28,227 nt of DNA. Origin: a virus. The notes beneath the pieces were generated by a model. That model was not told the DNA's origin. It did no database searches and saw only the letters and a program-made list of their open reading frames with translations. Shown here piece after piece: positions 5,401-24,439 of this stretch; position 1 is the first letter of the stretch; every line of letters starts with the position of its first letter. The stretch spans positions 1-28,227 of IMG/VR virus record IMGVR_UViG_3300017752_000110; one strand, 5' to 3'. A program made the position numbers and the translations under genes.

Positions 5401-7841
5401 GTATGGAAAGATTTAAGAATGGAATCGTAGTTGATAGTTTCCTTGGTCATGGTACAGCAGATACAATTGATCCTGCTTACGCAGCTTCAGTTGATAAGGT
5501 CGAAGGTCTGATGAGACCTACCTTTGAGGAATCTAATAATAGATTTGTTCTAACTCCAGAATCTGATACCAGTGGCATAAATCCAGATGGTATGGCCACA
5601 CTTGATATGGTTAGTAAAACCGTAGATGAAAATGGCAACGAAACTGCTGGCGACGAAGTCGCATTTATTAATCAAGATCAGGCAAGTATGCACATGAGTG
5701 TTAATCCTTATGCCGTCGCCGCATGGTGGGGAGAGATGAAACTGTCTCCTTCATCTGATCAATGGAAAGAAACAAGGCAAAGACCAGATATTGTTGTTAA
5801 TAGAGGAAATGACGCATCGGTCTTAAATAATATCAGAAATGCTGTCAGAGCACAGGGAACACAGTGGGGCTCTTGGAGAACGAACTGGGTTGGAAGATTT
5901 AGATGGCGCCGCCGCGGCGGCTTTCGCGGCCGAGGTCGTGCTAGTTCATGGAGGCGTTTTGGCCGAAGGGGTCGTAGATGGCGCCAATGGTTGAGATACG
6001 GTCTTAGAACCACAGTGAGTGTTGAAACTGTAAGAAGAACAGTTAATAATAAGATTGTAGATACTTCTTTTGTTCCATTCATAAGATCAAGGAGAGTATA
6101 TTTTACAGGTAAGTTATTCAGACCAAATACAACATTGCATCTTTATTTTGATGGCGTTGATATATCTTCATATGCAACTAAAGCCCCTTTTGTTGAATTT
6201 AAGAACAATACAGATGCTAGAAATTTCCTAGGTAGAACTGATACTCAGATATTCAAGACTTTGACTGGCAATACTGGCAGAGAAGAATTGGTAACAGATG
6301 ATGCAGGAAGTATTACTGGATATTTCGTCATTCCTAATAATTCTGAACATAAATTCAGAACAGGTGAAAGAGAAGTTATTCTATCAGATTCTTCTACTGG
6401 AGCTAAGGCTGATGATTCAACAACCTCTGCATCTGTGGAATATAGTGCGACAGGTGTGATTCAACATACACAAAGAACTGTTGTTTCAACAAGAAGAGTC
6501 CGAATCAGAAGAGATTGGGTTTTCCATAGAAGAAATGTTCGAGTTCGTCGGAGAAGAAGGAGATGGAGAGACCCATTAGCTCAATCATTTATGATTGGGG
6601 AAATTGAAACGGGTGTGTATGCTACATCAGTGGATTTATATTTCCAAAAGAAATCTAATAATGTTCCTGTTCAGATGTATATTGTCACAACCGATAATGG
6701 TTATCCTTCACAGGAAATCATACCGGGCAGTGAGATAACTTTAATGCCAGAGGATGTGAATATCGACAGCACTCGTGCCACCGCAGCCACAAACTTCAGA
6801 TTTGAATCGCCTGTCTATCTTTCACCGGGTGTGGAATACGCAATTGTTGTACTATCTAATGATGATAATTACAGAATGTGGCTTTCAGATATAGGTAAAG
6901 AAGATGTTACCACAGAGAAAATGATTGTGAAGAATCCATATACAGGTGTGATGTTCAAATCACAGAATGCTTCGACATGGACTGCCGATCAGAATAAAGA
7001 CTTCAAGTTCAAATTAAATAGAGCTGACTTCAAGAAGAGTGATGGAAGCGTTGTATCCGAATCAAATCCATTGACAAAGGTATATGAGTTTGATCTATTG
7101 CGCGAACTTTCAGATGATAGTCCACAGCAAGAGATTTCTGTAAATTATTCACAATTGATGCTTCAAGCCGAAGAGGTGAATCTTCCACAAACATCTATTA
7201 GATACCAGTTATCTATTAAAGGAGCCAATGCCGACGGGTCACGCACGGATGCAGAGTATGTTGATGTTACCCCAGGTGAAGAATATTACCGAGGTGGAAC
7301 AATCGATACTGACCTAACCAACGCAATAAAACTCAAAGTTACGATGACTAGCTCATCTCCTTTTATCACACCACTTCTTGATCTAGACAGATTGGCACTC
7401 GCAGGTGTGAGGAATATTATTAATAGCGAATCAGTAGTTCAAACAACACCTAGTGATAGCACAACTGATACAGAATTAAATGCTAATCATGGTACAGCAG
7501 AAGCAAGATATATCACACAAGAGGTTAATTTAGCCAACCCTGCGGATAAGATCAATACATATCTTGATATTAATCGTCCTATCGAAGGCTCAAATGTTAG
7601 AGTTTATATCAGAACAAAAATAGGTGAAGAAAGTATTCTGAATAAAAGCTTTGTGAGAGTATTACCTAAGAATGATAATGAAATTCCTATCAATGCTGAC
7701 CCAGATGAATTTGAAGAAGTTGAATTCCAATCAGACACACAGCCTTTATTCTCGTCATTCCAGGTTAAAATTGTTATGACATCTAATGACACAGATAAGG
7801 TTCCTGTTATAAAAAGTCTGAGGTCTATCGCTACAACATAA
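2412..7841 (+). CDS. giant DUF4815-type tail/baseplate structural protein
   Basis: The 1809-residue product begins with the block typical of DUF4815 proteins of marine T4-like phages: YLRILYKPGVSVQARELNQ at about 33-51 followed by QMQSMVQSQI. A second conserved region, with DNRRYTMRDIGELENRIKNI and a following helical stretch, sits near residues 950-975. A third, DPLAQSFMIGEIETGVYATS, starts at residue 1387 and leads into a beta-rich domain. These proteins are virion components, thought to belong to the baseplate or fibre network; equivalence to T4 gp7 or gp10 is not established. Two arginine-rich patches (about 1154-1199 and 1361-1386) flank a roughly 160-residue beta-rich segment; the first uses many CGC/CGT codons, unlike the AGA-rich remainder. 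The start is the first ATG after gp8, 20 bases downstream, with no clear ribosome binding site. Confidence 0.82.
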   Translation: MPNNITVYGGTPHVDDFQTPIDGRTKTPEESNYLRILYKPGVSVQARELNQMQSMVQSQIDTLGRGSFQDGATIAGGEKQFDDGIYAVDINIIDENGEVFDVGNGVNRKHFLDNLTTLQYKYPTSQSASRGDYYINATVLSYVDIPTGEDSYNVRFFIRYDNSYRDDDGIEYNTFPDDASNIFYGGVDNILRLDDDSVANQVGALRGNGPISSFGEIDPNDPNSTRGPIQQNGSIGTVISGSLRQAIVAKVDSGIFFVKGEFVLNDEQSIYFIKPVYDYLANGKLAFRVVETVLKGTERLDLQDNSAGYPNSKAPGADRYTIDLQLLFLSEKDIASTNDEDFINNNSDVIDIATTTGNDQSSSAESYSHVLTIEDGKDRTKVADVLDSNITNVLARRTEEESGDYAVEPFVIDIREYYNDTADSENRGLYTLQQIKDDGISITSDDISGLVTSGSTTLNLGDLDDSVESNAKIEQYGESRFSIGIEPSVAYVEGFRIEATERIDIPVEKARRTEDSVLTTMSATLGSYIESDTPFSGIPSLGMNVVQGAATAKVRGIEKVGTKFRLYLYNIAGVFVGGTNPTAITGGSNSFSFTPSSGLKESDENESFITLPYENIESVLTSAGSQPQLRIRSKDTGSITSTAPNICKLDFSQNDVTESRLYDIEAGETYLIMTTNGDVVIPDSATFEGEGKILKLNLPSGHNLQPGNYDVMNTYTASLTDVKTKSSANFTKTFGEGAITSEFEGLGKVDVYEIVSAKYFSDTNSDGVLNTVDDSPAAESSVDITSEIELDDGQRDGIYKESKIRYLGGVDLSDKTVIVTFKHFERSTGGNFYSKNSYNTIDYKDIPSYNEVRLSDILDFRGDEDITNVTNTGLTTFFDPNSIAQATVNYYLNRIDVVVVNTLGEFKVITGTPALYPDQPSIPDNAMHLYTVNVPAYTFDIKDIENDYIDNRRYTMRDIGELENRIKNIEYYQTMSLLENDANEKQINDEDADGSVGMERFKNGIVVDSFLGHGTADTIDPAYAASVDKVEGLMRPTFEESNNRFVLTPESDTSGINPDGMATLDMVSKTVDENGNETAGDEVAFINQDQASMHMSVNPYAVAAWWGEMKLSPSSDQWKETRQRPDIVVNRGNDASVLNNIRNAVRAQGTQWGSWRTNWVGRFRWRRRGGFRGRGRASSWRRFGRRGRRWRQWLRYGLRTTVSVETVRRTVNNKIVDTSFVPFIRSRRVYFTGKLFRPNTTLHLYFDGVDISSYATKAPFVEFKNNTDARNFLGRTDTQIFKTLTGNTGREELVTDDAGSITGYFVIPNNSEHKFRTGEREVILSDSSTGAKADDSTTSASVEYSATGVIQHTQRTVVSTRRVRIRRDWVFHRRNVRVRRRRRRWRDPLAQSFMIGEIETGVYATSVDLYFQKKSNNVPVQMYIVTTDNGYPSQEIIPGSEITLMPEDVNIDSTRATAATNFRFESPVYLSPGVEYAIVVLSNDDNYRMWLSDIGKEDVTTEKMIVKNPYTGVMFKSQNASTWTADQNKDFKFKLNRADFKKSDGSVVSESNPLTKVYEFDLLRELSDDSPQQEISVNYSQLMLQAEEVNLPQTSIRYQLSIKGANADGSRTDAEYVDVTPGEEYYRGGTIDTDLTNAIKLKVTMTSSSPFITPLLDLDRLALAGVRNIINSESVVQTTPSDSTTDTELNANHGTAEARYITQEVNLANPADKINTYLDINRPIEGSNVRVYIRTKIGEESILNKSFVRVLPKNDNEIPINADPDEFEEVEFQSDTQPLFSSFQVKIVMTSNDTDKVPVIKSLRSIATT

Positions 7842-8855: not shown

Positions 8856-11642
8856 ATGCCAAGTTCAAAAATAATACATACTAAGACAGGTCGTAAAAGC
8901 GCTACACCTCATCCAGATGACCTCGACTTTGGAGAGTTGGCTATCAATTATAATGATGGCTTATTGTTCTTTAAGAATAATAGTGAAAAGATTTCTATCC
9001 TTGCATCAAGTAATCAAATTCGGAGCATAAACAGTCATATTGGAAGTGAGCTAAATCCGCATAAAGTTACCAAGGCTCAAGTAAATTTGGGATTCGCAGA
9101 TAATACATCCGACCTTGATAAACCTATTTCTGATCTTACTGCACAAGCTCTAGAGAAAAAAGTAGATAATATAACCCTTGAAAATGAATATTATACTAAG
9201 ATAGCAACTAACGCAGAAATAGACGGCAAATTTGGTGCGATTAATATTATCAATGGTAGTCCAACAGAATTATCACCCGAAGGAAATTTATCATACGATG
9301 CCTCGATTAATACATTTTCATTTACAAAGCCAACACTTCCAACTTTAGCTGATCTTGGGGGTCTTGCAATAGATGCTGTTAAACTTAATCCGCCTTTAGC
9401 TGGAAGCATACAAGGTAATGGAGTTTTATCATATGATGGATTAGGAATATTTACATATGATCGACCCACGATTGGTGGACTTGGCGGCTTCGCAAAAAAT
9501 GAGATTGGATTAGAAGACAAGGGCAGTGATATTAGAAGTAATGGAGATTTATCATACAATAATGGAATTTTTACATATGATCAGCCCACGATTAGTGGAT
9601 TAACTGATGGTAGGATAACTGTTACAGATGATGTCTTGAATGTAGATGGCTACGCAAGATTATCCGATCTAGAGTCTTCTGATTCTAATAATGATCAAAC
9701 TGCCCAAGGTTTGGACGTGCGCATCACTACTAACAAAGAGAATATCGAAAGCAATGATAAAGATATTGCGGACCTCGATGTGCGCATCACTACTAACAAA
9801 GAGAATATCGAAAGCAATGATTCTGATATCGAGGAACTTCGGGACTTAATAGGAGACAATGATGCAGCAATTGATGATCTAAAAACAGCTTCGGGTGATG
9901 CTTCTGATCAGCTTCAAGGATTGCAAGGTATTCGTGATTCAATCACTGATTTATCAGATAATAAGGCTAATGTATCAGATTTAACTACTCATATAAATGA
10001 TGAAAATAATCCACATAGGGTTACAGTTGGCCAACTTGGTTTAGAAAATGTAGATAATACAAGTGATGCTAATAAGCCTATTTCTGATGATACACAAGCT
10101 GCTTTAGATTTAAAACTTAATATCAGCGATCTTCCAGATACTACCCAGACGACAACAGATATTAATACTCTTAGTGGGTCGATCTCAGATAAAGCTGATC
10201 AATCATCTTTAGATACTCATACAAATAATGAAAGTAATCCACATAAGGTTACGGCGGCCCAACTTGGTTTAGAAAAAGTAGATAATACAAGTGATGCTAA
10301 TAAGCCTATTTCTAATGATACACAAGCTGCTTTAGATTTAAAATCGAATAAAAATCATGTCGATGGCATTCTAGACTCTCATACTCAAGCACTAGACTCT
10401 CATACTCAAACTCTCAGTGCGCAAGGGAATTCAATTAATGAAAAAGCGACCGCGTCCGATTTAAATTCCCATACAAATAATGAAAGTAATCCACATAAGG
10501 TTACGGCGGCGCAACTTACTCTAGGAAATGTAGATAATACAAGTGATGCTAATAAGCCTATTTCTAATGATACACAAGCTGCTTTAGATTTAAAATTGGA
10601 TGCTAATGATTCTGTATTAGATGGTATAGACACGAATACTCAATCGATTAATGGCCTTCAATCCATAGTTAATACGGCGCATGTTGCGGGTAGATCCAGT
10701 GCAAAACGGTTATATTTGACAGGATCGCCTTCTTCACAGGGAGGCGAGCGCGCTGAAATATCTTTATTAGCTAATAATTGGGTCCACAGCAACGAACGGA
10801 ACAACGCTTATTATAAAGCAAAGAATCACATCTTTACTAATACTGGGTCGCACTCTGCCTTGAGAATTGCAGAAGATGGCACCTTAACCGCGGTAACGCA
10901 AACAATTGAGAAAATTGAAGCTGAGGGTGATAAAGCCATTGCAACTAAAGAATATGTTGATAGTGTAGCAAATGGAGATTTAGTGGCCCGGACATATGTA
11001 GATGATCAAGTCAGCGACGTTCATGACTCACTATCACTGTTGGCTTATAATATGTCTCTGGTTGCACCAGGTGGATCATACATAGCGGTACAAAGATATT
11101 CAACCCCAACAAAGAGCGATGGCAGTGCCTTCACCTCCAACTGGACGACTGGCGCAACTCACAGTAGCGCTGGCGCCTGGACGCAAGGCTACATTAGCAA
11201 TGGTGGCTTCATTTTTAATTCAACGGGAAGTAAGCGAATGCAAGCCGTTAATTCTAATGCAGGTGGTTTTGCGATGGTCAATAATATTAGCCACTATAAA
11301 TCAATGACGATTAATGTTGGTTATCAGTTTACTCGAAATACTGATGATGGATCTAGCTTTTATATGCAATATAGTATAAAGAATACAAATAATGTTTTTG
11401 ATGTGACGCCAGGTGGTTCTCTTATTACATTGTCAAAGGCAGAAAATGTAGGTGGTGGTTGGACCGGTAGTCAAGATCAGCCAGCTGGCTGGGGTGTTGT
11501 ACACACTCATAACTCGAATGTGGTCGTCCCGCCGAATTCCAAAATATTCTTTAAATTTACAGCTCAGATCAATGGAGGGAGTGGCCAATACGAAGGCCTT
11601 GGACTCAGAGGATTCAGTATCACTTCTCCTACTTGGAGTTAA
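8856..11642 (+). CDS. long tail fibre with HxNDxxNPHxVT repeats
   Basis: The 928-residue product opens with a fibre-attachment type block, DLDFGELAINYNDGLLFFK at about 22-40, common in cyanophage fibres. The shaft contains four copies of the well-known fibre repeat HxNxxxNPHKVTxxQLGLxxVDNTSD at residues about 61, 379, 455 and 539, the last three nearly identical even in DNA. Residues about 130-250 hold three LSYD/FTYDxPT units, and 288-322 hold two identical 14-residue units. After residue 700 the sequence becomes a GGxW-rich beta domain, likely the receptor-binding tip, ending FSITSPTWS. The start follows the previous stop by nine bases with an A-rich leader. It should form an elongated trimer on the virion. 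Fibre assignment is firm; receptor unknown. Confidence 0.86.
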   Translation: MPSSKIIHTKTGRKSATPHPDDLDFGELAINYNDGLLFFKNNSEKISILASSNQIRSINSHIGSELNPHKVTKAQVNLGFADNTSDLDKPISDLTAQALEKKVDNITLENEYYTKIATNAEIDGKFGAINIINGSPTELSPEGNLSYDASINTFSFTKPTLPTLADLGGLAIDAVKLNPPLAGSIQGNGVLSYDGLGIFTYDRPTIGGLGGFAKNEIGLEDKGSDIRSNGDLSYNNGIFTYDQPTISGLTDGRITVTDDVLNVDGYARLSDLESSDSNNDQTAQGLDVRITTNKENIESNDKDIADLDVRITTNKENIESNDSDIEELRDLIGDNDAAIDDLKTASGDASDQLQGLQGIRDSITDLSDNKANVSDLTTHINDENNPHRVTVGQLGLENVDNTSDANKPISDDTQAALDLKLNISDLPDTTQTTTDINTLSGSISDKADQSSLDTHTNNESNPHKVTAAQLGLEKVDNTSDANKPISNDTQAALDLKSNKNHVDGILDSHTQALDSHTQTLSAQGNSINEKATASDLNSHTNNESNPHKVTAAQLTLGNVDNTSDANKPISNDTQAALDLKLDANDSVLDGIDTNTQSINGLQSIVNTAHVAGRSSAKRLYLTGSPSSQGGERAEISLLANNWVHSNERNNAYYKAKNHIFTNTGSHSALRIAEDGTLTAVTQTIEKIEAEGDKAIATKEYVDSVANGDLVARTYVDDQVSDVHDSLSLLAYNMSLVAPGGSYIAVQRYSTPTKSDGSAFTSNWTTGATHSSAGAWTQGYISNGGFIFNSTGSKRMQAVNSNAGGFAMVNNISHYKSMTINVGYQFTRNTDDGSSFYMQYSIKNTNNVFDVTPGGSLITLSKAENVGGGWTGSQDQPAGWGVVHTHNSNVVVPPNSKIFFKFTAQINGGSGQYEGLGLRGFSITSPTWS
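9036..9161 (+). repeat. divergent copy of the 126-bp fibre repeat
   Basis: In-frame with the three later copies and coding NPHKVTKAQVNLGFADNTSD, but clearly diverged in DNA. It marks the first unit of the fibre shaft. Confidence 0.6.
9717..9758 (+). repeat. 42-bp direct repeat, copy 1
   Basis: Identical 42-bp units start at 9717 and 9780, a period of 63 bp (21 codons), inside the fibre gene. They code for RITTNKENIESND. Confidence 0.9.
9780..9821 (+). repeat. 42-bp direct repeat, copy 2
   Basis: Second identical unit of the 42-bp repeat in the fibre shaft; identity at synonymous positions implies a recent duplication or gene conversion. Confidence 0.9.
9990..10115 (+). repeat. 126-bp fibre repeat, copy A
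   Basis: Codes for HINDENNPHRVTVGQLGLEN followed by VDNTSDANKPISDDTQAAL. The second half is almost base-for-base identical to copies B and C; the first half has diverged slightly. Confidence 0.9.
10218..10343 (+). repeat. 126-bp fibre repeat, copy B
   Basis: Codes for HTNNESNPHKVTAAQLGLEK followed by VDNTSDANKPISNDTQAAL. Same length and frame as copies A and C, with few base differences from C. Confidence 0.9.
10470..10595 (+). repeat. 126-bp fibre repeat, copy C
   Basis: Codes for HTNNESNPHKVTAAQLTLGN followed by the shared second half. Near-identity to copy B gives the fibre gene a substrate for homologous expansion or contraction. Confidence 0.9.
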
Positions 11643-11895: not shown

Positions 11896-14800
11896 ATGCC
11901 TCTTACAAAAAATACAACTTCTATTGCATATCAGACCACTGGTAATACCGAAACATTTGTCACAGGAAGCACCATAACCCCAGGTGCATTATTACAATGG
12001 GATAGTAGTGGTAATGCGGCTTCAAGTGGCTTTGATATTTCGCAAGAAGATTTTGGTGGTACACTACCATCAAGCGCATCAACTGTACCTACTCAAGTTG
12101 CGATTGATAATCTAATCAATTCTAGATTGGGAACTCAAGATGGATCACAATTAGGTTTGGTCAGTGTGGGTGAGAATAATGAACCTGCAGGTTCGGGTGG
12201 AATCATTATCTCACCTAAGGTAAATGGTGAACAGATAATAACATATACACCACCTGATGTTCTTACTGCAGAACAAATAGATAATACAGGTTTTGATAGT
12301 GGCGAGTTTGCTTCTTTTGATTCCAATGGTAATCTTGTATCATCGAAGATAAAACAGTCTCTTGTAATAAATTCAAGTTCAACTGATAATACATTTCCCA
12401 CAACAAAGACGGTCTTCGATTATGGTCGGAATATCGCCGCAAATAGATTACTTGGTGTGGATGATACCATTGGACATGGCGATTTTCTTTCTTATAACTC
12501 TGCAACTGGGGGTTTCGAAGCCTCGACCTCCACAGTAGGCAATCATAAATTATTTAGTGCAACTCATACAGATGTAGCAACTAACATAACCCCATCCTAC
12601 GGTGATTCAATTTACTATGATGGTACAGAATGGACTAAAGGAAACTTTGGTAATTGGGGTGCTGATATGGAATATAAAGGCATCACTAATCAGAATGGTG
12701 CGACTTTTAGTGACTTATCATATTCGGGCGCAAGTAATACAGACGTCAGAAAATTCATTTTTGATTCTGGCTTCGGCGATGCAATGCCACAGGGATACGC
12801 AGCGAGAAATTATTCCGGCTCCAATCTATCAGGCAATTTCTCTACAAGAATAATAACAGGAATCGATAAAGTAGAAATTAGTGGATTACAAGGCGGTAAC
12901 CAAGGCCAAAACGTCGCGTCGGGTAATAATTATCCCGGCGGTACTGGAACTTATATTTATGATTCAGAACAAAACGTGTGGTACAATTCCGATTATAATG
13001 GACCAGATGATCGCGGCTGGTTTTACCACTTCCACCCAACATTGAATCGCTGGCAAAGTGGAAATACCGTCGAGCTGGCCACGCAATCCTCAGGCGACAC
13101 GCTGGCCTTCATGTCACCGAGTCCTACTGAAGCTCAAGGTTTTTGGGCTATTCAAGATAATTCAGCCTTTCAATGGAAAAGTTCGACTTACTCAGTAGCG
13201 AATTTCATTGGGCTGGAAACCGTAGCGCAGGGTGGAACTGCTTCTTATATATTCACTCCTGGTACGACTACCTCGACAGAAAATCTGACTCCATTAGGTT
13301 TTTCTACAATAGATGATGGTGTAGATATTACTGGGGGTAATTTTGCATTATCAAGTAAGATTCAATTTCCTATTAGTGGTTTAGTTGGCGGAGGACTTGT
13401 AACTTCAAGAATTCGTGGAGTATATATCAAGGCCCATATCTTTATGAATGCGGGGTCTAATGATAGGAAAGCAGATATATATGCAACATACCCAGACGGT
13501 TCAAGGCGGCCATTATTGAAGACCGAAAGAAATACCTATTATAATCAAACTACAAACACAAACATTGAAGAAACAGTATTTGTTCCTATTAATGAAGGAC
13601 AGACTCAATTACAAATAGAATTCAACCTTGATAAGCATACGCGAGAAGGACTTGCTTTTGAAATTATTGGAGCCTTGTGCACTAAGAGAATTGAATTAAG
13701 TCCAGAGGTTGATCACATTCAGATCGTTGGTTCACAGGCTACTGAGGGCAGGGCAAATGTAGTAACAGATGGATATGTTCATGGAGGCAACGTTCCCGTC
13801 GGCGCATCGGTCCCGTCACCGAATAGTTTTTCGGCCACGAATAGCAGCAACCAATACCGCTCGGATATTTGGTCTTCTCTAACACCAACGACTCCTCCAA
13901 CTTTACGCTGGTCTGATGTTTTACCAATTACAATTCCAGATAATGTTTCAAAGACTGTTATTAAATCCAAGACTGCTTGGGCACTCGTTTCTCCCAGCGA
14001 AGAACATTCAACCACAGAGATTGTAATTGATTGGGACGCACAGACAATTACTGGTACTTATTTCAGTGATAATGAATTCTCTCAGAGTGGTTACCTATAT
14101 TCCGATAATCTTACTGGTGTAAAAACTTTTATCATTGAAGATTCTGGCAGTTTCCAACCCATCATAAGAGTAGAGGTCGACGGCCGAGATATTGTAAAAT
14201 TGCCTGTGCCGCGGCATGCCGATGGAGCTGGCAACGTCTACCAAAACTTTGCATTATCCTATAACATTGAGAATTATAAGACCGTCGCTCCTACTACTAA
14301 AAAATTAGGAACAGGATTTACAACTCTGGCCACCGACCGGCTCGCTACGGTTGCGGCACCGATATCTGGTACAGCCGAATTTGATGGATATCTCATAGTA
14401 ACTGCCAACTTTGATGACGCGGGTAACAACGCCACGGGTACCAAACAAGATGATTTTTACATTGATATTGGAGGCACAATCTTTAAAAATAATAACCCTG
14501 ACAGGGATGGATTCCAGACGTTTTGTGAAACCTTAACCCTACCAATTGCGTCTGGCGAAACATATAGCATTACATCTAATGAGGGGACAACCTTTGATGT
14601 AAGATTTAAGGCAAAGACACTAGAGGCTTCAGGTCTAAATGGAGCAGATGGTGCACCAGGTGCCACAGGTCCTCAAGGCCCACAAGGGACTCCGGGCAAT
14701 GATGGTGCTCCGGGTGAAAAAGGAGATACAGGAGATACAGGCCCACAAGGCCCACAAGGCCCACAAGGGACTCCAGGCGCTAATGGTGTTGGCTCTCAAG

Positions 14801-15375
14801 GTCCACAAGGCATTCAAGGTCCACAAGGGCCTGCTTTTGTACCAGCAGCAGTTACAAGGCTGGCGGTGATCGGCAGCAATGACAACCGCTATCGTGCATT
14901 TACTAGAGCCGAGGGAAAAAAGTATATATACCCAGGACTGGACATGGATGAGGTTCAAGACCTCTCCACTGAGGAGTCCATCCGCCTATTCTACGGAACT
15001 CACGGCGGAGGCGTTCCAAAAGAAGCGCATGGATATGTACCTTTTACTATGAACAACGATATTAATGTAGGTACTGATTACGACAATGTTGTAGGTGCAA
15101 CTATTCGGCTCTCGGTGGTTCAGTCAACAAATACTGGTGGTCATTTTAGAGGTGTAACTATTCTTAATTCTTCGGCCGAAATAGTAAGTCAAAGTATGAT
15201 TGAATATAAACTGCCCACTACCGAGGGTTTTACTACCCCGCGTATCATTGCATCTGTATATGTACCAATACATGCAGGACTAGAAACTTTTTATGTGTAT
15301 GCCGATTGGGCCCATGGCTCAGGCATCAGCCGAACGACCTATTACGCGCAATTAACTAATTTATATGTTTCTTAG
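11896..15375 (+). CDS. tail fibre / adhesin with collagen-like stalk
   Basis: The 1159-residue product is a probable distal fibre or adhesin. It starts [20 protein letters not shown] and is rich in G, S, T and N throughout, with beta-type segments. A Gly-X-Y run covers residues about 916-979 ([19 protein letters not shown] and onward), with one break at GVGS, giving about twenty triplets; phage collagen-like runs form trimeric stalks. The last 180 residues form a separate domain after the stalk, likely the receptor-binding head. Two inner segments (DNA 13041-13120 and 13781-13860) are much richer in GC than the rest of the gene, which hints at mosaic origin. It has its own late promoter directly before the ATG and ends 58 bases before the opposing gene block. 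No chaperone-type C-terminal autoprotease motif was recognised. Confidence 0.8.
14641..14832 (+). repeat. collagen-like Gly-X-Y coding tract
   Basis: Roughly 190 bp coding about twenty Gly-X-Y triplets, dominated by GPQ, with near-identical 9-bp units (ggcccacaa) in tandem. Such tracts slip easily during replication and can change stalk length. Confidence 0.88.
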
Positions 15376-16135: not shown

Positions 16136-16786
16136 CTACTCTGTGAAATTTGGACGTTTATATAGATAAGATGGTTTTTTATTACCCCACCCAAGTTTGA
16201 GCGCAGAGTGCGGTATTTTTTCATTTATTTGAACCATGCCATCTATTATACTTTTTATTTTTTTATTCGAATCGTAAAGTGTTGTTAATGTTTCTCCAAA
16301 AGTAAAATAGCGCCAAGACTGCAAGTTTATAAAATTTTCAATGTATGAGTGCTTCCATTCATCAATTAAATAATGATTAGGTTCTTTAGTACATAAAAAC
16401 CAGACCACAGTTTCAAGTGAATCAGTACCGTATCCTCCTCTTGGTATAAACCTGTATGTAAAAAATCCAGTTTCATTTAAAACTTTATGATAAAACCGAC
16501 TAAGTGATTCCATTGGAAATACACTCACATCTGCCCACACCCCTCCGAATTTAGATAACAATAGTATTCTCAATAGATCAGCCCTTGCTTGAATATTTCT
16601 TTTAGGAGAATTTTTAACTATATCAAAATATTCAGGGACATAATCAGCAATTGTTTTATCTGAAAGAACATTAACTTCCCAAGTTGGGTTTAATTCTTTC
16701 CAACGATTAATACACTTTCTATTCAATCCAGACAAAGACTCGTGATCTTCGCCTTGAAACCAACACATCCATATTGTTTTGTTCAT
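16136..16786 (-). CDS. capsular polysaccharide synthesis-type glycosyltransferase
   Basis: A 216-residue protein beginning NKTIWMCWFQGEDH, which is the first strand of the capsule-synthesis (Caps_synth, related to GT32) fold, whose members start with IPKIIWxxW. The core motif ARADLLRILLLSKFGGVWAD at residues 67-86 matches the family signature (SDxxRxxLLxxxGGvWxD), with D86 as the likely metal or nucleotide-sugar ligand. The second acidic residue of a DxD is replaced by serine (DVS), as happens in Caps_synth members. The C-terminal half is less conserved. It should transfer a sugar from a nucleotide donor to a glycan. It is the last gene of the glycan island, three bases after the sulfotransferase stop. 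Family call is good; donor and acceptor unknown. Confidence 0.78.
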   Translation of the reverse strand: MNKTIWMCWFQGEDHESLSGLNRKCINRWKELNPTWEVNVLSDKTIADYVPEYFDIVKNSPKRNIQARADLLRILLLSKFGGVWADVSVFPMESLSRFYHKVLNETGFFTYRFIPRGGYGTDSLETVVWFLCTKEPNHYLIDEWKHSYIENFINLQSWRYFTFGETLTTLYDSNKKIKSIIDGMVQINEKIPHSALKLGWGNKKPSYLYKRPNFTE

Positions 16787-16789
16787 AAT

Positions 16790-17338
16790 TTATTTCCCAA
16801 ATTCATATCCGAAATACTCAATGTCCTTTGCGTATTTTTCTGCAACAATAGATTTTGTTTCATCATCATAATATTCGGTGTAGTGTTTGTGTTTTGATTT
16901 ATTAATATGAGGAAGTTCTTGTCTTGGAATTTTCATTTTATCGCAGACAAAGTTGAGGTCTTCTTGAAGATTTTCGAATTTTCCAATGAAGTCTATATCA
17001 TGTGGTATTTGCGTATTTTGAATACAAATATGACTATCTTCTATTATTTCATTTTTAATAAAATCTGAGAATGTTAGTTTATTAAATTTACTCCAAGGGC
17101 CGTATTTTTTTGAAGCTTTATTCTTATAAGCTGATACCGCTCTGTCCCAAGGATTCCTTACTATTGTCCAAGTAAAATAATCTTTATACATATCTGGTTC
17201 ATAAAACTTAAAGGGTTCTGATTTAAAATTGAATATATTGAAAATAGAACGTGTGCCCGTTTTATGAATCACAAAGTATATAAACTTGAAGGAATGACCG
17301 TATTCAGTAGAAACTCTGTATTGTGTTTTGCACTTCAC
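16790..17338 (-). CDS. PAPS-dependent sulfotransferase-like protein
   Basis: A 182-residue protein with both hallmarks of P-loop sulfotransferases. Residues 22-31 (FVIHKTGTRS) match the 5'-phosphosulfate loop (FvxxPKtGTtS), with a lysine in the expected position and histidine in place of the usual proline. Residues 57-72 (WTIVRNPWDRAVSAYK) match the 3'-phosphate binding block, with the key Arg61 and Ser69. Length is short compared with most family members (200-300). It should transfer a sulfate from PAPS to a glycan hydroxyl in the cytoplasm. The start is GTG at 17338, because an in-frame stop lies six bases upstream. It sits between two glycosyltransferase genes with short gaps, which supports a glycan substrate. 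Certainty of fold is high, of substrate low. Confidence 0.8.
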   Translation of the reverse strand: MKCKTQYRVSTEYGHSFKFIYFVIHKTGTRSIFNIFNFKSEPFKFYEPDMYKDYFTWTIVRNPWDRAVSAYKNKASKKYGPWSKFNKLTFSDFIKNEIIEDSHICIQNTQIPHDIDFIGKFENLQEDLNFVCDKMKIPRQELPHINKSKHKHYTEYYDDETKSIVAEKYAKDIEYFGYEFGK

Positions 17339-17347
17339 CTCTTATTA

Positions 17348-18859
17348 TTAATTTGTATCTGAAATATATTTAGTATTTTGTTTTTTAATTTCATTTTGTA
17401 TATATTCCATGTTATCGATTCCTCTTATATAATGTAATGTAATCTGTTCATTCCATGCTGGGAATCTCTTCTTCAGTTCTTCTAAATGTAATTTTTTGGT
17501 GTAATTCCAGCCTCTGATGAAGCAGCAAGCATTTAAACCAATGAAGTGTTTCATTTGAACTCCTTGTTTGAATGCGTATTGAGAAACATTTGTATCAGAA
17601 TGTTTGGCTTTTGGGAGTATTTCACAGTGCTCAAATTTTTCCAGAACTTTTTTATTCATCAAATATCCTGCGCCTCCATGCGCCCACGATCTTCCTGCTT
17701 TATCCAAAGGCTCAGAGTATATTTTGTCTTCATTGAAATTATCTTTTATGATACATGATTTTAGTTTTACTTCATTGACATATGTATCATTGTCTACAAA
17801 GAAATAGTAATCATAATTTTTATATCTATCATCATTAATTAACACCTTGAACACCCTCGCATTTTTTTCTACGCAAGATTTATAATCTGAATTATCAGAT
17901 ACCTTTACTATATTCTTTGATACATCTTCATGGTCGGAATAATACATATGATCTATCCTTGAGCCCCATGTTTTTTCTATGGCTTCATATTGTTCTGGTT
18001 GTTTTTCTGTGTGTAATATACAACATAGTATTTTATCTTTAGCATATAATGTATCAGACTTATAATGATTATAATATGCTTCATTTTTATCACAATCATA
18101 TGTAGTAACTTCATGGTATCGATACCATGTACAGCCTTTATGATTAGACCATGCAATGTCACCTGGTGAATACCATCGGTTCGGAGCCGCACCAATTTTC
18201 AATGGAAATAATAGTGATGTTTTGCAGAATGTTTTTTTCGCACAATATTCAAACTTTCTTGCTTGTTGTGTGTGATCATTGGGATGTTTCGTAAATGATT
18301 CTCTGTATATTCTTTTCTGAAACGCCTCTGCCAAGGCGATATTATCATAATCCCCTTTTGTACCTATATAATTTATAAAATCTTTTAAGTTGGAATGATT
18401 ACCTAAATTAATATATTCATCAATGTCTAACATTGCTAACCAATCACTATCTCTTCCTTGTTGGATGTGGTGTAACATTGCCTTCCATTGTGATTCAGGG
18501 TATTTAGATAAGTGATGCACATTATATTCAAATGGAATAAATGTAACATTTGGATACTTATCATTTATTCTATTTAAGATACAATCAATTTCTTCTTCTG
18601 TCCATTCAAGAAAATGATCTATATGAGGTTTCAAGTCCCATCCTTTAGATATTTCACCAGAACATCCTTTATCGCCGAATACCTTTTCTGCAATGGGCCC
18701 TACTTTGTTAGAATATTGTGTAGGCTCAGAAGCTAGATTGAACCCATTATTATAAAAATAGATATGGTCTACGCCCAAATTAAGATTATGTTTTATCCAA
18801 TCTTCTATATAATAAAAATCTAGTCTAGGAGCAAAAAGTGTTACTAAATGTATCTTCAT
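17348..18859 (-). CDS. two-domain glycosyltransferase: GT92-like plus Fringe/GT31-like
   Basis: A 503-residue fusion. The N-terminal half (1-270) looks like a GT92/DUF23-type GT-A domain: it opens MKIHLVTLFAPRLDFYYIED, then HIYFYNNG at 32-39 and WLAMLDIDEYI at 140-150, where D145-D147 is the DxD. The C-terminal half (about 275-503) resembles Fringe and core-1 beta-1,3-galactosyltransferases (GT31): KILCCILHTEKQPEQYEAIE leads to KTWGSR, YYFFVDNDTYV at 351-361 carries the DxD-equivalent D356-D358, and WAHGGAGYLMNKKVL at 392-406 matches the GGAGY block, followed by SDTNVSQYAFKQGV as the acidic and glycine motif. The ATG overlaps the stop of the 52-residue gene (ATGA). Both active sites look intact, so it could add two sugars in series. 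Donors and acceptors are unknown. Confidence 0.8.
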   Translation of the reverse strand: MKIHLVTLFAPRLDFYYIEDWIKHNLNLGVDHIYFYNNGFNLASEPTQYSNKVGPIAEKVFGDKGCSGEISKGWDLKPHIDHFLEWTEEEIDCILNRINDKYPNVTFIPFEYNVHHLSKYPESQWKAMLHHIQQGRDSDWLAMLDIDEYINLGNHSNLKDFINYIGTKGDYDNIALAEAFQKRIYRESFTKHPNDHTQQARKFEYCAKKTFCKTSLLFPLKIGAAPNRWYSPGDIAWSNHKGCTWYRYHEVTTYDCDKNEAYYNHYKSDTLYAKDKILCCILHTEKQPEQYEAIEKTWGSRIDHMYYSDHEDVSKNIVKVSDNSDYKSCVEKNARVFKVLINDDRYKNYDYYFFVDNDTYVNEVKLKSCIIKDNFNEDKIYSEPLDKAGRSWAHGGAGYLMNKKVLEKFEHCEILPKAKHSDTNVSQYAFKQGVQMKHFIGLNACCFIRGWNYTKKLHLEELKKRFPAWNEQITLHYIRGIDNMEYIQNEIKKQNTKYISDTN

Positions 18860-19014
18860 TCTTCGTCTTCATACATTATGAGCATATATAACTGCTCTGG
18901 TGTTTCTCTAAGAACTAACATCATCGTATGATATATCGATAGACTTAATGATACTACTAGTACACCTGGTAATGCTACAAGTACAAATATATATGCTAAG
19001 ATTTTTTTCATCAT
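18856..19014 (-). CDS. 52-residue single-pass membrane peptide
   Basis: A short open frame with two adjacent ATG codons (19014 and 19011), too short for usual ORF filters. Residues 3-30 are strongly hydrophobic (KKILAYIFVLVALPGVLVVS and onward), so the product is a membrane peptide or has an uncleaved signal anchor; the C-terminus is acidic (EDEE). Its TGA overlaps the ATG of the two-domain glycosyltransferase, which argues for translational coupling. A CATAAATA late-promoter match lies 16 bases upstream. It could anchor a glycosyltransferase complex at the membrane, but that is a guess from position. An unrelated superinfection or lysis role is possible. Confidence 0.66.
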   Translation of the reverse strand: MMKKILAYIFVLVALPGVLVVSLSLSIYHTMMLVLRETPEQLYMLIMYEDEE

Positions 19015-19043: not shown

Positions 19044-19862
19044 TCAATCATATCTTTGTTTTAGATGATCCCAAGCATCACCATTTTCTATCTCATATGG
19101 AAGCCATTGTGCGTATGCTGTATTATTGCACCATTGTGTCCTATCAGGTGTTGGTGGATTATTGAGTTGAGAGAGGTCTTTCATAGCCAGATCCCATACC
19201 ATAGAACCATTATCAAAGTTCACAACAGGTGTTCCAGCTAAAGTAGCATCGACACCACTATTACTATTGATCGTGACAACAACTTTTGCTTTGGCACATG
19301 CTTCGGCAATTGGAATATTGGAATCTGCTATTCCATCTTTTTCAAAAACACCCCATGTCATCCGGCGGTGTGGATGATCTCTGACATAGACAGGAAGATC
19401 TGTATTGGCTTTGATGTCATTAATTATTTTCTGATAATTAACATCCAAGTGATTGATTGAATTATCGCCTTTAATTTGTGTGGTTAATAAGATGTGATCT
19501 CCATCTGTATTCCATTCTTTCAGTCTGCCATCATTGAAGTGTTTCTTCCATCTATCATCTGGCATATTCTTATTATAGAATTCTCCTTTACCATTAAGTC
19601 CATTATAACCTAAGGATATCCATTCAAATCTATCTTCAAGATATGAGCGTTCCATAAGAAGAAAGTCTTTTTTCAATCCGGGTCTTACTATTCTGGCGCC
19701 TCTCATACCCCAAACCAATACTAAATCAGATTCATTATCCCCCTTAAATCCAATTTCAAGATTGGCATTTATATTATGTCTTTTTAAACCACTTACGAAT
19801 TTTTTGGCAGTATCTATTTGATGTGTCTGTCTTGAAGACATTGCGTAACATGATATTTTCAT
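19044..19862 (-). CDS. putative capsule KpsC/KpsS-like glycosyltransferase
   Basis: A 272-residue protein. The C-terminal part (about 150-225) has the layout of the nucleotide-binding half of GT-B capsule transferases: LPVYVRDHPHRRM at about 155-168, then VVVTINSNSGVDATLAGTPV at about 194-213 followed by NFDNGSMVWDL. This SxSGxxATLxGTPVV pattern is typical of KpsC/KpsS and related polysaccharide proteins. The N-terminal half contains ESDLVLVWGMRGARIVRPGL, a plausible Rossmann edge. It is shorter than two-domain Kps proteins. Its ATG overlaps the stop of the GT61-like gene (ATGA), so the two are coupled. A transferase or polysaccharide-processing role is likely; specific activity is not established. 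Confidence 0.6.
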   Translation of the reverse strand: MKISCYAMSSRQTHQIDTAKKFVSGLKRHNINANLEIGFKGDNESDLVLVWGMRGARIVRPGLKKDFLLMERSYLEDRFEWISLGYNGLNGKGEFYNKNMPDDRWKKHFNDGRLKEWNTDGDHILLTTQIKGDNSINHLDVNYQKIINDIKANTDLPVYVRDHPHRRMTWGVFEKDGIADSNIPIAEACAKAKVVVTINSNSGVDATLAGTPVVNFDNGSMVWDLAMKDLSQLNNPPTPDRTQWCNNTAYAQWLPYEIENGDAWDHLKQRYD

Positions 19863-20863
19863 AGTAAGTATAATTTCTTTTTGAATTTCTCGATATCCAC
19901 ATTACATTTGGTCCCGCTGGGGTTGTCATTTAATGCTGTCTTTTTTATTACAGTGTGATATTTAATATCTAAACATGCAGCAAGATGAGTGAAGAAGCTT
20001 CCTGTTATCCATTCGCCGCCCGCGCGCGGGGCTTCTGCTAAGAATTCTATAAGTATCGTATCTTTTTTACATGCTATTAAATTTGTGAAGCCTGCTCCAT
20101 GGCATCCTATTACTATCTTCGCAGAATTAAATTTTTTAAGTTGAGCATCAATAGAGCCCAAATCTTTTGAATCATCATGGTATATTAATTTCAGATTGTT
20201 TTCTTTGCAGTATTTTTTACAGATATCATCCACATCGTCCCAGTTTTGTAGCAGTCTGCAAAAATTCCTTTTTAACAATAATAAAGAATCTTGTTTTGTT
20301 TCGGAAAGATTTAGATTATTGATTATCCTATTACGCACTGATGCGATTTCTTCTTTACTATATAGATCGATACGAGACATATTTCCCATAGTTTTTCCAA
20401 CAGGTAGTAAATGTTTGCATGATATAGTGGAACCATTTTGTAAGAAGATTATATTATCATCTTGAATTTTTGGATATAGTATCTTTATCCACTGTTTAAC
20501 AAAACCGTTAATTTTGGAATCCATTACTAATATTTTACTTTGATTTACCGTGCCTCGGTATTCCGCGGAACCAGATGTCTTCTCTTCTAGTATATTTTGA
20601 ACATAAAAATTCCAAACATAATCTGTGGGGAAATGATAAACATGATCAGAATGCGGACCGATCATCGCCACAGCATTGATAGTGTATGAATTGTGGTCGG
20701 CAAGCGCCGGCATCCTTTCGCGCAGAGGTACTAACTTTTCGCTTTCTTTTTCGAATGGCCATAATTTAACCCATTCTGTATTATAGATAAAGTGTATATT
20801 ACCATCTATAATTTTAAGTGTAGTGTGCAAAACGCGGCGAGGGTGTTGATTAATTGTGATCAT
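19859..20863 (-). CDS. GT61-like glycosyltransferase (DUF563 type)
   Basis: A 334-residue protein whose C-terminal part contains AKIVIGCHGAGFTNLIACKK near residues 249-268, followed by DTILIEF, the signature of GT61/DUF563 transferases (HGAGLTNxxFxxxxxxVIE). LLLLKRN near 197-203 fits the conserved xxRxxxRR-type strand before the donor domain. The N-terminal half carries PHSDHVYHFPTDYVWNFYV near 70-88, similar to the H-x-x-x-D part of the family. GT61 contains plant xylosyltransferases, animal EOGT and some bacterial proteins, all inverting. It is the first transferase of the island, 14 bases downstream of the ParB-like gene, and its stop overlaps the next start. Donor sugar unknown. Confidence 0.75.
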   Translation of the reverse strand: MITINQHPRRVLHTTLKIIDGNIHFIYNTEWVKLWPFEKESEKLVPLRERMPALADHNSYTINAVAMIGPHSDHVYHFPTDYVWNFYVQNILEEKTSGSAEYRGTVNQSKILVMDSKINGFVKQWIKILYPKIQDDNIIFLQNGSTISCKHLLPVGKTMGNMSRIDLYSKEEIASVRNRIINNLNLSETKQDSLLLLKRNFCRLLQNWDDVDDICKKYCKENNLKLIYHDDSKDLGSIDAQLKKFNSAKIVIGCHGAGFTNLIACKKDTILIEFLAEAPRAGGEWITGSFFTHLAACLDIKYHTVIKKTALNDNPSGTKCNVDIEKFKKKLYLL

Positions 20864-20877
20864 ATAAGTAAGAGTAA

Positions 20878-21315
20878 TTAATAATATTTTCCTTGGTATG
20901 GTTGGCGATGAAGTTTTTGCATTCTTCGGGCACTGTCAAAATCTGCATTACGGATTATAATACAATCAACGTATTCATATCCCAATTCATTAGCAATATG
21001 CCATCTATTTGAACCACCCCAAACAGTATATTGTCTAACAGTTAAATCATCTTTATCTTTATCAAAGGGCAATTCACATAAACTATCCTTATACTTTTTC
21101 TTTTGCCTAACCAAATCATTTCGAGTTGCATCGACAACTATTAGAGGAAAATGTAGACCATTCTCTTTTATGTCTTGTTTGATTGGTTCATAGAAATCTT
21201 TACTTCTAAGAGTTTTGGCGATTGGAACCGAGGCCCACAGATCAGAAACTCTCAATTCTATCACTTTTATTTTATTCCATTCTAAATTATGAAATCTCGA
21301 TTTAAGTGTTTTCAT
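20878..21315 (-). CDS. ParB-like N-terminal domain protein
   Basis: A 145-residue protein with the fold signature of the ParB/sulfiredoxin-like domain: KVIELRVSDLW near 17-27, then FYEPIKQDIKENGLHFPLIV near 41-60 (the I-x-x-S/D-I-x-x-x-G-x-x-x-P-I-x-V pattern) and VWGGSNRWHIANELGYEYVD near 98-117, equivalent to the GxxRxxAaxxLG box. No helix-turn-helix is visible beyond it, so it is a lone catalytic-type domain such as is frequent in T4-like phages, where such proteins may act as CTP- or ATP-binding enzymes or nucleases. A perfect TATAAATA lies seven bases before the ATG. It heads the glycan island, but a regulatory link is not shown. Confidence 0.72.
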   Translation of the reverse strand: MKTLKSRFHNLEWNKIKVIELRVSDLWASVPIAKTLRSKDFYEPIKQDIKENGLHFPLIVVDATRNDLVRQKKKYKDSLCELPFDKDKDDLTVRQYTVWGGSNRWHIANELGYEYVDCIIIRNADFDSARRMQKLHRQPYQGKYY

Positions 21316-21322
21316 CTGTTTT

Positions 21323-21330
21323 TATTTATA
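21323..21330 (-). promoter_or_regulatory. late promoter TATAAATA for ParB-like gene and glycan island
   Basis: Exact octamer on the minus strand, seven bases before the ATG at 21315. It shares two bases with the plus-strand octamer, and together they make the 14-bp palindrome TATTTATATAAATA. Confidence 0.75.
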
Positions 21331-21336
21331 TAAATA
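21329..21336 (+). promoter_or_regulatory. late promoter TATAAATA for the 21345 gene
   Basis: Exact octamer on the plus strand, eight bases before the ATG at 21345, overlapping the opposite promoter by two bases. Confidence 0.75.
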
Positions 21337-21344
21337 TATTCTAT

Positions 21345-22028
21345 ATGATAACTTTACCAATTATTCGCCCAGGGCCGTTTATTAATCATTCAATAGACCC
21401 CAATAATTCTGCTAATATTCCTGTATTTGTTGAGGAGCCTGCTGGCGGTAAGGCGTTTAATTACATCGATCCTGTGAATGGAGCATGTGATGAATCTGAA
21501 CATTGGAAGTGGAGATATTATCTAAAACAAGAAACATATAATTTTGATTATGCCTCGCGCCAACAGCCTGCAGCTGAAGCATACCATACCTTTAAAAATA
21601 GAGAAGCAACAAATATTACTGCAGTAGAAACCAAAAAACTTACAGACAAGGATTCGGTTTTGTTTGATGCAGGATGGTCATATACTGCAACCCAAGACTT
21701 TGAATGGGAATTAATATATAGATGTAAAAATGGCGGTACCAGTGCACTTCATGGTTGCTATGCAAAATATCAATATCCAGCTGAGGCTGGAGCTGAAGAT
21801 ACATATGTAAAAAATGGATATGTGAAAGATGGATATGTAACTATTCTTGATCCAGATAATGGCGAGATCAATGAAATCAATAGGAGAGTGTTGATCACAT
21901 TACCCAAAACAGTTTTTCCGAAAAGAGTAAGTTTAATGACTTTTGCAAATGTAGGAGAAGATATTGGAGAAGGAGCAGAGATTGAATTCGAATGGAGATT
22001 TGGCCCTGTTGGTTCTTTTAATCCATAA
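21345..22028 (+). CDS. isolated late gene, probable virion or accessory protein
   Basis: A 227-residue protein of unknown family. It is rich in aromatic residues and looks beta-structured (WKWRYYLKQETYNFDYASRQ near 50-69; EIEFEWRFGPVGSFNP at the end). A short internal repeat, VKNGYVKDGYV, is near residues 159-169. No signal peptide or membrane segment is visible. It is the only plus-strand gene among about 11 kb of minus-strand genes, has its own late promoter, and converges on the 22737 gene with an 11-bp overlap of the coding ends. The ATG at 21345 is preferred over an upstream GTG at 21306, which would cross the promoter. The late promoter and composition make a virion protein plausible; no direct match is recognised. 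Confidence 0.68.
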   Translation: MITLPIIRPGPFINHSIDPNNSANIPVFVEEPAGGKAFNYIDPVNGACDESEHWKWRYYLKQETYNFDYASRQQPAAEAYHTFKNREATNITAVETKKLTDKDSVLFDAGWSYTATQDFEWELIYRCKNGGTSALHGCYAKYQYPAEAGAEDTYVKNGYVKDGYVTILDPDNGEINEINRRVLITLPKTVFPKRVSLMTFANVGEDIGEGAEIEFEWRFGPVGSFNP

Positions 22029-23013: not shown

Positions 23014-23090
23014 TGGTACTCCGAGCAGGACTCGAACCTGCGGCCCACGGTTTAGAAAACCGTTGCTCTATCCATCTGAGCTATCGGAGC
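23014..23090 (-). tRNA. tRNA-Arg (anticodon TCT)
   Basis: Full cloverleaf: acceptor GCTCCGA / TCGGAGT, D arm GCTC/GAGC, anticodon arm ACGGT-TTTCTAA-ACCGT, T arm GCAGG-TTCGAGT-CCTGC, encoded CCA. It reads AGA, the arginine codon that dominates the phage genes in this window. Confidence 0.96.
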
Positions 23091-23095
23091 ATATT

Positions 23096-23170
<75 letters not shown>

Positions 23171-23195
23171 ATAAAATTAATAAAACCAAATCTAA

Positions 23196-23278
23196 CAGGC
23201 TCTTCCCATCCTGCGGTGGGTCTTCTCTTGTGAAATTGATAAGAGGGTTTGAGCTGTCTCCGCAGGAGTCCGAAGACT
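23196..23278 (-). ncRNA. candidate pseudoknotted structured RNA within the tRNA cluster
   Basis: The gap between tRNA-Glu and tRNA-Asn has several pairings on the minus strand. First, a hairpin AGTC-TTCG-GACT (23278-23267) with the extra-stable cUUCGg loop. Next, a seven-pair stem CCTGCGG (23266-23260) with CCGCAGG (23216-23210), enclosing a hairpin CTCTT/AAGAG (23245-23225). Finally, CAGCTC (23256-23251) inside that stem can pair with GAGC-C-TG (23202-23196) outside it, and CCC can pair with GGG, which makes a pseudoknot. No open frame covers it. T4 also carries non-tRNA stable RNAs in its tRNA cluster. I recognise no known RNA family. Confidence 0.5.
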
Positions 23279-23317
23279 TTATTCCTTTGGCATAGTATTT
23301 GATTTTAAGTGCAGAAA

Positions 23318-23395
23318 TGGCACCCCTACGCGGATTCGAACCGCGGTTGCCTGGATGAAAACCAGATGTCCTAGACCTGGCTAGACGATAGGGGC
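23318..23395 (-). tRNA. tRNA-Glu (anticodon TTC)
   Basis: Full cloverleaf: acceptor GCCCCTA / TAGGGGT, anticodon arm TCTGG-TTTTCAT-CCAGG, T arm CGCGG-TTCGAAT-CCGCG, discriminator G and encoded CCA. It is the first tRNA after the glf gene on this strand. Confidence 0.94.
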
Positions 23396-23446: not shown

Positions 23447-24439
23447 TCAAACCATATTGTTGATTTTATTCATAGAATCTTTGATGCACATCCACATATC
23501 CATATATTTGTATCGTGCTAATCTACCTAAAAACACAGTATTCTTTTCTTCTTTTACTAATTTTCTATACTGAGAATATTTCTTTTGTCCTTCACCCCAA
23601 GGTATTGGATAAAATGGTATGTCACCCTTCTCCATCTTTTTAGGATATTCTTTAGTGATCACTGTATTCCCACTATGATTTGGGTCAAAGTATGAATGAT
23701 CATATATTCTGGTATACTCCATATCCTTGTTGCATTGATTATAAACCAATGTGTCCAGTTTCTTTTTAGATTCTTCATGTTTTAAATTAAGTGAGCGATA
23801 TTCTAGTTCACCATATCGATAGTCAAAATATTCATCTATCTTTCCCGTGTAGATTAGATAGTCATACTCTTCGTCTTTCCATTCATCTTTATCACAGTTT
23901 AATTTTACCTCGATACCTTCTATCATGTTTTCAAACATACGAGTGTAACCTTCTTTTGGGAGACATTGATATTTCTGACCTTCGAACCAAGTTGGATTAT
24001 CACATCCCCTTGTCTTTGGTATACGATTAGTTATAGTCTTGGGTATATCATCAAATGAAACTCCCCATTGCTTTTCGCTATAATCTCTAAAGATATTTTC
24101 TCTGATTTCATCATCAGACAGTGCTTTTCCTATGTGCTTTTCACTTCCGTTATCGTGATAAGGCAATGGGATATTTCCCAAAGGTGTTACACCTACAGGT
24201 CGATATTCAAATGGAATCCATTCAGTAAACCTTGAAAGAAAAGAAAAGACTTCTTCATCATCTGTATGAAAGATATGTGGGCCATAATTATGAACCATGG
24301 TACCACCCATCTTTGAATCATAGCAGTTGCCCGCTATATGAGAACGAGTTTCATATATCTTAACCTCGTGTCCTTTATCTTTTAATATCCTGCCGGCAGT
24401 GCATCCACTAAGACCACATCCAATAACCAAAAATTTCAC
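23447..24439 (-). CDS. glf: UDP-galactopyranose mutase
   Basis: A 330-residue flavoprotein. It interconverts UDP-galactopyranose and UDP-galactofuranose, the donor for galactofuranose in surface glycans. Residues 4-16 (LVIGCGLSGCTAG) are the FAD-binding GxGxxG loop and ETRSHIAGNCYD near 30-41 completes the dinucleotide fold. HNYGPHIFHT near 50-59, DYSEKQWG near 119-126, YGELEYRSLNL near 209-219 and FLGRLARYKYMDMW near 303-316 are the conserved UGM blocks; the last holds the family's substrate-binding arginine. It is somewhat shorter than the roughly 370-residue bacterial enzymes. The start is GTG at 24439, four bases after an AATAAATA string. It lies upstream of the tRNA cluster, apart from the glycosyltransferase island, with which it may cooperate. 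Confidence 0.92.
   Translation of the reverse strand: MKFLVIGCGLSGCTAGRILKDKGHEVKIYETRSHIAGNCYDSKMGGTMVHNYGPHIFHTDDEEVFSFLSRFTEWIPFEYRPVGVTPLGNIPLPYHDNGSEKHIGKALSDDEIRENIFRDYSEKQWGVSFDDIPKTITNRIPKTRGCDNPTWFEGQKYQCLPKEGYTRMFENMIEGIEVKLNCDKDEWKDEEYDYLIYTGKIDEYFDYRYGELEYRSLNLKHEESKKKLDTLVYNQCNKDMEYTRIYDHSYFDPNHSGNTVITKEYPKKMEKGDIPFYPIPWGEGQKKYSQYRKLVKEEKNTVFLGRLARYKYMDMWMCIKDSMNKINNMV

Follow-up and report, generated by a model that had tools for sequence, protein, structure and literature searches.

The window (the whole stretch of DNA analysed, 28,227 nucleotides) is a 28-kb virus record of IMG/VR, IMGVR_UViG_3300017752_000110, and represents a contig fragment. It contains a gene for a fusion glycosyltransferase, and the following genes are found around it.

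2412-7841, plus strand: VrlC homologue bounding the host-recognition cluster; its identity to the VrlC proteins of Pelagibacter phages HTVC008M and Mosig is 31-32%
11896-15375, plus strand: tail-fibre-like protein with collagen-like repeats, adjoining the glycosyltransferase cluster
16136-16786, minus strand: Caps_synth / Gly_transf_sug glycosyltransferase (PF05704, 4.7e-27)
16790-17338, minus strand: sulfotransferase, directly downstream of the fusion (PF03567, 1e-15; PHROG 'galactose-3-O-sulfotransferase', 4.7e-18)
17348-18859, minus strand: fusion glycosyltransferase of 503 aa, with ATG at 18859, stop at 17348 and no interruption
18856-19014, minus strand: 52-aa protein with a single membrane helix, directly upstream of the fusion; its stop overlaps the fusion start (ATGA)
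19044-19862, minus strand: 272-aa protein with a weak Capsule_synth match, upstream; a conserved partner in all three loci described below
19859-20863, minus strand: GT61 glycosyltransferase (PF04577, 7.8e-17), in a variable slot
23447-24439, minus strand: UDP-galactopyranose mutase (UGM), which makes UDP-galactofuranose (PF03275, 6.6e-58; aligns along its length with 1i8t)

The DNA had been called phage from its sequence alone, and the genes for a tail sheath stabilizer, a baseplate wedge, VrlC and tail fibres within the window bear this out. The VrlC is closest to those of Pelagibacter phages. In T4-like marine myophages the host-recognition cluster is the interval from VrlC to gp14 that holds tail fibres and glycosyltransferases; the window carries the VrlC, tail fibres and glycosyltransferases of this type of cluster, on a contig fragment. 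The setting is probably the hypervariable cluster for host recognition that follows VrlC in T4-like marine myophages. The clusters of pelagimyophages and cyanomyophages, as presented in the available part of PMC7029224, likewise have VrlC, tail fibres, several glycosyltransferases and a hypervariable island, but GT8 is the main family in them and neither a GT31/GT92 fusion nor a link to UGM is among the features described in that part.

The sequence-only reading had proposed a single frame with two sets of GT-A-type motifs. Such an ORF is found at exactly 17348-18859, with the motifs where that reading had placed them (DID at residues 145-147, DND at 356-358 and GGAGY at 395-399), and it lies on the minus strand, which had not been given before. 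The domains and predicted active-site residues, all on the minus strand, are as follows.

18047-18859: N-terminal GT-A domain, PF13704 / GT92-related, residues 1-271
18419-18427: DID (residues 145-147), the predicted metal-binding DxD of the N domain, whose two Asp do not vary across 19 sequences
18062-18067: His265-Tyr266, at which the N domain ends; unchanged throughout the family and aligned with the HY of galactan synthase
17351-18034: C-terminal GT-A domain, GT31 (Fringe/C1GalT1-like), residues 276-503
17786-17794: DND (residues 356-358), the predicted metal-binding DxD of the C domain, whose two Asp do not vary across 39 sequences
17666-17677: GGAG G-loop, residues 395-398
17594-17596: Asp422, predicted catalytic base, aligned with the xED Asp, D255 of DmC1GalT1; in all 38 sequences with data
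17432-17434: His476, predicted metal-binding C-His, present in 38 of 38

The same two-domain protein is present at full length, with 61-62% identity, in two other IMG/VR contigs (L001:3801-5297 and L002:6001-7494), and the DID, DND and GGAGY residues are identical across the three fusions. Between L001 and L002, the only pair in which dS is moderate for both halves, dN/dS is approximately 0.24-0.27 in both (0.179/0.666 and 0.126/0.516). The values for the window against L001 and L002 are 0.17-0.28 where dS is below 2, the C-half dS of the window against L001 being saturated. Both halves are under purifying selection. An assembly artefact is therefore ruled out by the occurrence of the fusion in three contigs, and a decayed gene or pseudogene by the low dN/dS, about 0.1-0.3 overall for comparisons with unsaturated dS. 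Internal duplication has also been ruled out, as hhalign aligns only 28 columns of the two halves, around the DxD, with a probability of 23%. Only some ten residues separate His265-Tyr266, the last conserved residues of the N domain, from the strand that opens the C domain, so the two domains are joined without a linker.

Outside these three contigs, a PHROGs search gave no matching family for the fusion protein, no direct relatives were found among the cultured phages searched, and two scans of bacterial genome contigs using narrow peptide patterns gave no relatives. The only hit was from an uncultured jumbo phage, to a standalone relative.

That the two halves are distinct GT-A-type domains, as had been claimed, is supported by separate profile matches to PF13704 (N-half) and PF02434 Fringe (C-half). 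Profile searches, which had been proposed as a check, lead each half to its own glycosyltransferase family: B3GLCT and C1GalT1 for the C-half and the galactan synthase 8d3t for the N-half. The N-half matches PF13704 (Glyco_tranf_2_4) over the cut-off (E=2.8e-10; 41 bits, cut-off 27.5). In the N-domain family PF13704 is matched by all 19 sequences and PF01697 (GT92) by 18 of 19 (best 5.1e-26); relatives pass the PF01697 cut-off, L140 for example with 44.2 bits. The N-half of the window itself scores 21.8 bits against a PF01697 cut-off of 23, so we have filed it as GT92-related and not as GT92; the earlier 'GT92-like' thus holds for a likeness, by PF13704 and the family profile, but not for GT92 proper. 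The family profile also matches 8d3t (E=1.5e-9) from the DxD to the HY motif. 8d3t is a plant galactan synthase (GalS1), a GT92 enzyme; in contrast to the fusion, it has a single GT-A domain plus other modules. A full-length AlphaFold model built from three sequences was poor (pLDDT 29.6). Because a joint MAFFT alignment of both halves placed N-half relatives onto the C-half, the structure was remodelled for the C-half only.

Scanned apart, the C-half of the window is marginally over the cut-off for PF02434 Fringe (E=1.8e-4; 21.4 bits, cut-off 21), and one of its relatives gives E=7.7e-9. All 39 sequences of the C-half family match PF02434 (best 8.5e-20) and 32 of 39 match Galactosyl_T. The viral profile of the C-half, compared with the PDB, matches B3GLCT (4.4e-26) and C1GalT1 (1.3e-23), and also chondroitin synthase, B3GNT2 and Manic Fringe. 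Structure prediction, also proposed as a check, gave a GT31-type GT-A fold for the C-half (39 sequences; pLDDT 87.8, pTM 0.87). The model superimposes on CHSY3 with Z 22.7 (2.8 A, 221 residues; E 8.7e-12), on C1GalT1 with Z 21.5 (4.0 A, 225 residues) and on B3GalT5 with Z 20.7 (3.3 A, 210 residues). The first 18 matches of the structure search, with Z 14.4-22.7, are all either GT31 enzymes or the chondroitin synthase complex, which contains GT31; those that follow are below Z 13. A phage 'Fringe-like' protein of Myoviridae sp. ctn8H20 (BFVD A0A8S5QEQ3, 612 aa) has a Fringe-like domain with a fold match at E 7.4e-9. Taken together, the profile, the predicted structure and all four GT-A landmarks (DxD, G-loop, catalytic Asp and C-His) place the C domain in GT31 (Fringe/C1GalT), as had been read from the sequence.

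D255 of DmC1GalT1 is the catalytic Asp in C1GalT1 (PMC9065035). The C domain shares with C1GalT1 (core 1 beta-1,3-galactosyltransferase, GT31, 7q4i) the fold, the DxD, the GGAGY G-loop, the position of the catalytic Asp and the C-His, but the two are only 14% identical and C1GalT1 is a membrane-anchored enzyme with a single catalytic domain and a GalNAc-Thr acceptor. In DmC1GalT1, Y218 and W300 serve in recognition of this acceptor. The (E/D)DV motif of C1GalT1 is replaced by SDT in the window. The three fusions lack the usual acidic neighbour before the catalytic Asp, having S, P and S there; they are among the 28 of 38 viral relatives with a non-acidic residue at this position. Manic Fringe (GT31, 2j0a) belongs to the Pfam Fringe family and matches the fold with Z 18.2 and 20% identity to the C domain; unlike the fusion it is a single-domain enzyme, which adds GlcNAc onto O-fucose of EGF repeats.

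Identity between the three fusions is uneven. In segments of 40 residues, identity between phages is 62-88% through most of the early half of each domain. Identity falls to 38-51% in all pairs at residues 201-240, and to 19-52% at residues 361-503 when the window is compared with L001 or L002; L001 and L002 hold 73-80% in the later half of the C domain up to residue 480. In the window, 17351-17779 (residues 361-503) is the acceptor-side half of the C domain and is sharply diverged, possibly by recombination. In the GT-A fold the first half is the nucleotide-sugar side and the later half binds the acceptor. The simplest reading of the mosaic, as judged from identity, would thus be that donors are conserved and acceptors change between phages, via recombination or fast divergence.

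The genes next to the fusion were compared between the three loci. The small membrane-helix gene is present in all of them (L001:3614-3772; L002:5849-6004, 51 aa), with the start/stop overlap in the window and L002, and its 52-aa product in the window is a possible anchor or partner of the fusion enzyme. The downstream sulfotransferase keeps the PAPS-binding motifs HKTGT and RNP..R..S. The slot of the GT61 gene is taken by a methyltransferase in L001 (2107-2760) and by two other ORFs in L002 (3773-4989), one of them a Gly_transf_sug glycosyltransferase; this slot is a case of cassette exchange between the three phages. The UGM gene of the window is 4.6 kb upstream of the fusion, beyond one opposite-strand gene and three tRNA genes, and there is also a UGM gene on the contig of L002. 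The tRNA genes (Arg, Asn and Glu; 23014-23395, minus strand) lie between the cluster and UGM. An ORF at 21306-22028 (plus strand) is on the opposite strand to its neighbours, with apparent opposite-strand counterparts in L001 (1025-1651) and L002 (2720-3385). In L001 a von Willebrand factor A domain protein (9693-10316, minus strand) adjoins the tail-fibre gene.

GT31 is usually known from animal enzymes, of mucin O-glycans, Notch tuning and chondroitin. The sequence-only reading had described both families as best known from animals; this needs qualification, as they are not exotic in viruses. Iterated searches of IMG/VR viral contigs with HMM scans found 42 distinct GT31-like ORFs, mainly standalone and about 200-265 aa in length, and GT31-like domains are not rare in viruses.

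UGM is found in 12 of the 40 viral contigs with GT31-like genes, in none of 40 control contigs (short motif match, no GT31-like hit) and in none of 19 contigs with GT92-like genes only. The Fisher test (12/40 against 0/59) gives p 6e-6, which is only a guide because the contigs are unequal in length and relatedness and glycan islands are a minority among the controls. On the GT31-like tree the UGM label changes at least four times on starred branches and about nine times overall. In six of seven loci UGM is adjacent or one gene off on the same strand, and it overlaps the GT31 start twice. Same-strand clusters of UGM and GT31-like genes were seen in several viral contigs (L176, L183, L162, L190, L175, L205 and L209). 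L162, on the same contig as L032, has the order UGM, GT92-like, GT31 with 4-base overlaps. The GT92-like gene of this operon is weakly similar to the N-half of the fusion (E 0.002 with the viral profile; PF13704 at 3.1e-4, below the cut-off). Among standalone proteins L032 is the closest to the C domain of the fusion, with modest tree support (80/40). UGM is recorded in other phages (88 records).

The two conserved glycosyltransferase-type domains, the intact motifs, the purifying selection and the genomic context are consistent with the fusion being, as we think probable, an enzyme of a T4-like marine myophage that is a bifunctional glycosyltransferase with one sugar transfer per domain. From these observations we infer the activity of both domains, their sequential action, the donor sugars and the acceptor. 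The N-terminal GT92-related domain would make one transfer and the C-terminal GT31 domain, as an inverting, metal-dependent enzyme, the other, most likely consecutively on the same growing glycan. The C-domain step would be a direct displacement in which Asp422 is the base while DND and His476 hold the metal-UDP. The putative partners are the small membrane protein, the capsule-type gene, the sulfotransferase, the other glycosyltransferases and UGM. Their product would be a short phage-specified glycan, probably rich in galactose, that may carry sulfate and galactofuranose and would sit on the envelope of the host or on virion tail fibres. The sequential reading is supported by the adjacent, separate GT92-like and GT31 genes of the L162/L032 operon, and conserved early halves with collapsed acceptor-side stretches are what would be expected if acceptors differ between phages. 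Weighing against the bifunctional reading are the weak resemblance of that operon's GT92-like gene to the N-half, the modest support for L032 and the missing acidic neighbour of the catalytic Asp. The sequence-only reading had suggested a processive or two-step sugar addition; two-step action is likely, whereas the findings favour processivity neither way.

The cluster adjoins tail-fibre genes, one with collagen-like repeats, and virion glycosylation is known in mycobacteriophages, as cited in PMC12619734, so that the phage's own tail fibre and not a host surface glycan could be modified. The glycosyltransferase-filled islands beside tail fibres after VrlC in pelagimyophages are instead read as modifying the host surface (O-chain) in PMC7029224, and the fusion gene is coupled to a gene for a membrane protein. 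We regard the tail fibre as a plausible acceptor that falls short of being the probable one.

In the structure search the C domain fits best to the GT31 domain of CHSY3, from a chondroitin polymerase complex. CHSY3 is an enzyme with two GT-A domains. CHSY3/CHPF is, like the fusion, a tandem of two such domains, which raises the question of whether the two domains of the fusion alternate on one chain to give a repeating polymer rather than a disaccharide. The C1GalT1 score (Z 21.5) is close to that of CHSY3, which suggests that the match is to the GT31 family and not to CHSY3 specifically. Additionally, CHSY3/CHPF is an animal Golgi enzyme with a polymer product and a partner domain that is not GT92-like, and no export or polymer-handling genes were recognised within the window. 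We hold polymerization unlikely.

The divergence of the acceptor-side half of the C domain in the window could also mean that catalysis is confined to one domain, the other serving as a scaffold or to bind the acceptor, in the way COSMC serves C1GalT1; a catalytically dead GT31 relative has precedent (PMC7185993). COSMC lacks the DxD and xED, whereas the three fusions keep both DxD motifs, the catalytic Asp and the C-His, and both halves are under purifying selection. We consider a single active domain improbable.

T4 glucosylates its own DNA, and the substrates of the characterised GT31 and GT92 enzymes are glycans or glycoproteins. Although phage glycosyltransferases are often of the DNA-modifying kind (PMC12619734), DNA modification in the T4 style is very improbable here, given those substrates and the position of the gene inside a tail-fibre/host-recognition cluster with a sulfotransferase and UGM.

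For the bifunctional enzyme, the association with UGM suggests, indirectly, that the second sugar added is possibly galactofuranose, and UGM may instead serve another glycosyltransferase of the same island. UDP-Galf is used by a fungal GT31 enzyme, GfsA; the authors of that work propose that the Gly before its catalytic Asp may mark such enzymes (PMC11538602). This galactofuranosyltransferase of Aspergillus (8yrl) shares the GT31 fold with the C domain (Z 14.4, below other GT31) and, as in the fusions, the residue preceding the catalytic Asp is non-acidic; it has an extra domain, and a UDP-Galf-making enzyme is encoded near the fusion in the window. We tentatively suggest, while holding it rather doubtful, that a large and hardly described branch of phage GT31 transfers galactofuranose made from UDP-Galp by a phage UGM of the same operon, and that here an operon with the order UGM, GT92-like, GT31 has had its last two genes fused into a two-step enzyme whose acceptor halves are diversifying between phages. 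If the galactofuranose reading were true, each phage would have its own Galf-containing surface glycan. Galactofuranose transfer is a concrete prediction for what is made by the host-recognition islands, rich in glycosyltransferases, that abundant marine phages carry. The dozens of small viral GT31 proteins, of which one is joined to a GT92-like partner and several are encoded in UGM operons, offer compact, testable enzymes.

Other multidomain forms occur among the viral relatives. In L013 the GT31-like domain is behind a different N-terminal domain. Three phage proteins of 746-748 aa (L017:6138-8375, minus strand; L187:3266-5509; and L194:3266-5509) have the GT31-like domain in the middle, preceded by an unassigned N-terminal domain and followed by a third region, which is glycosyltransferase-like in L017. 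Joining of domains is thus recurrent in such viruses, with the GT92-GT31 pair as one outcome.
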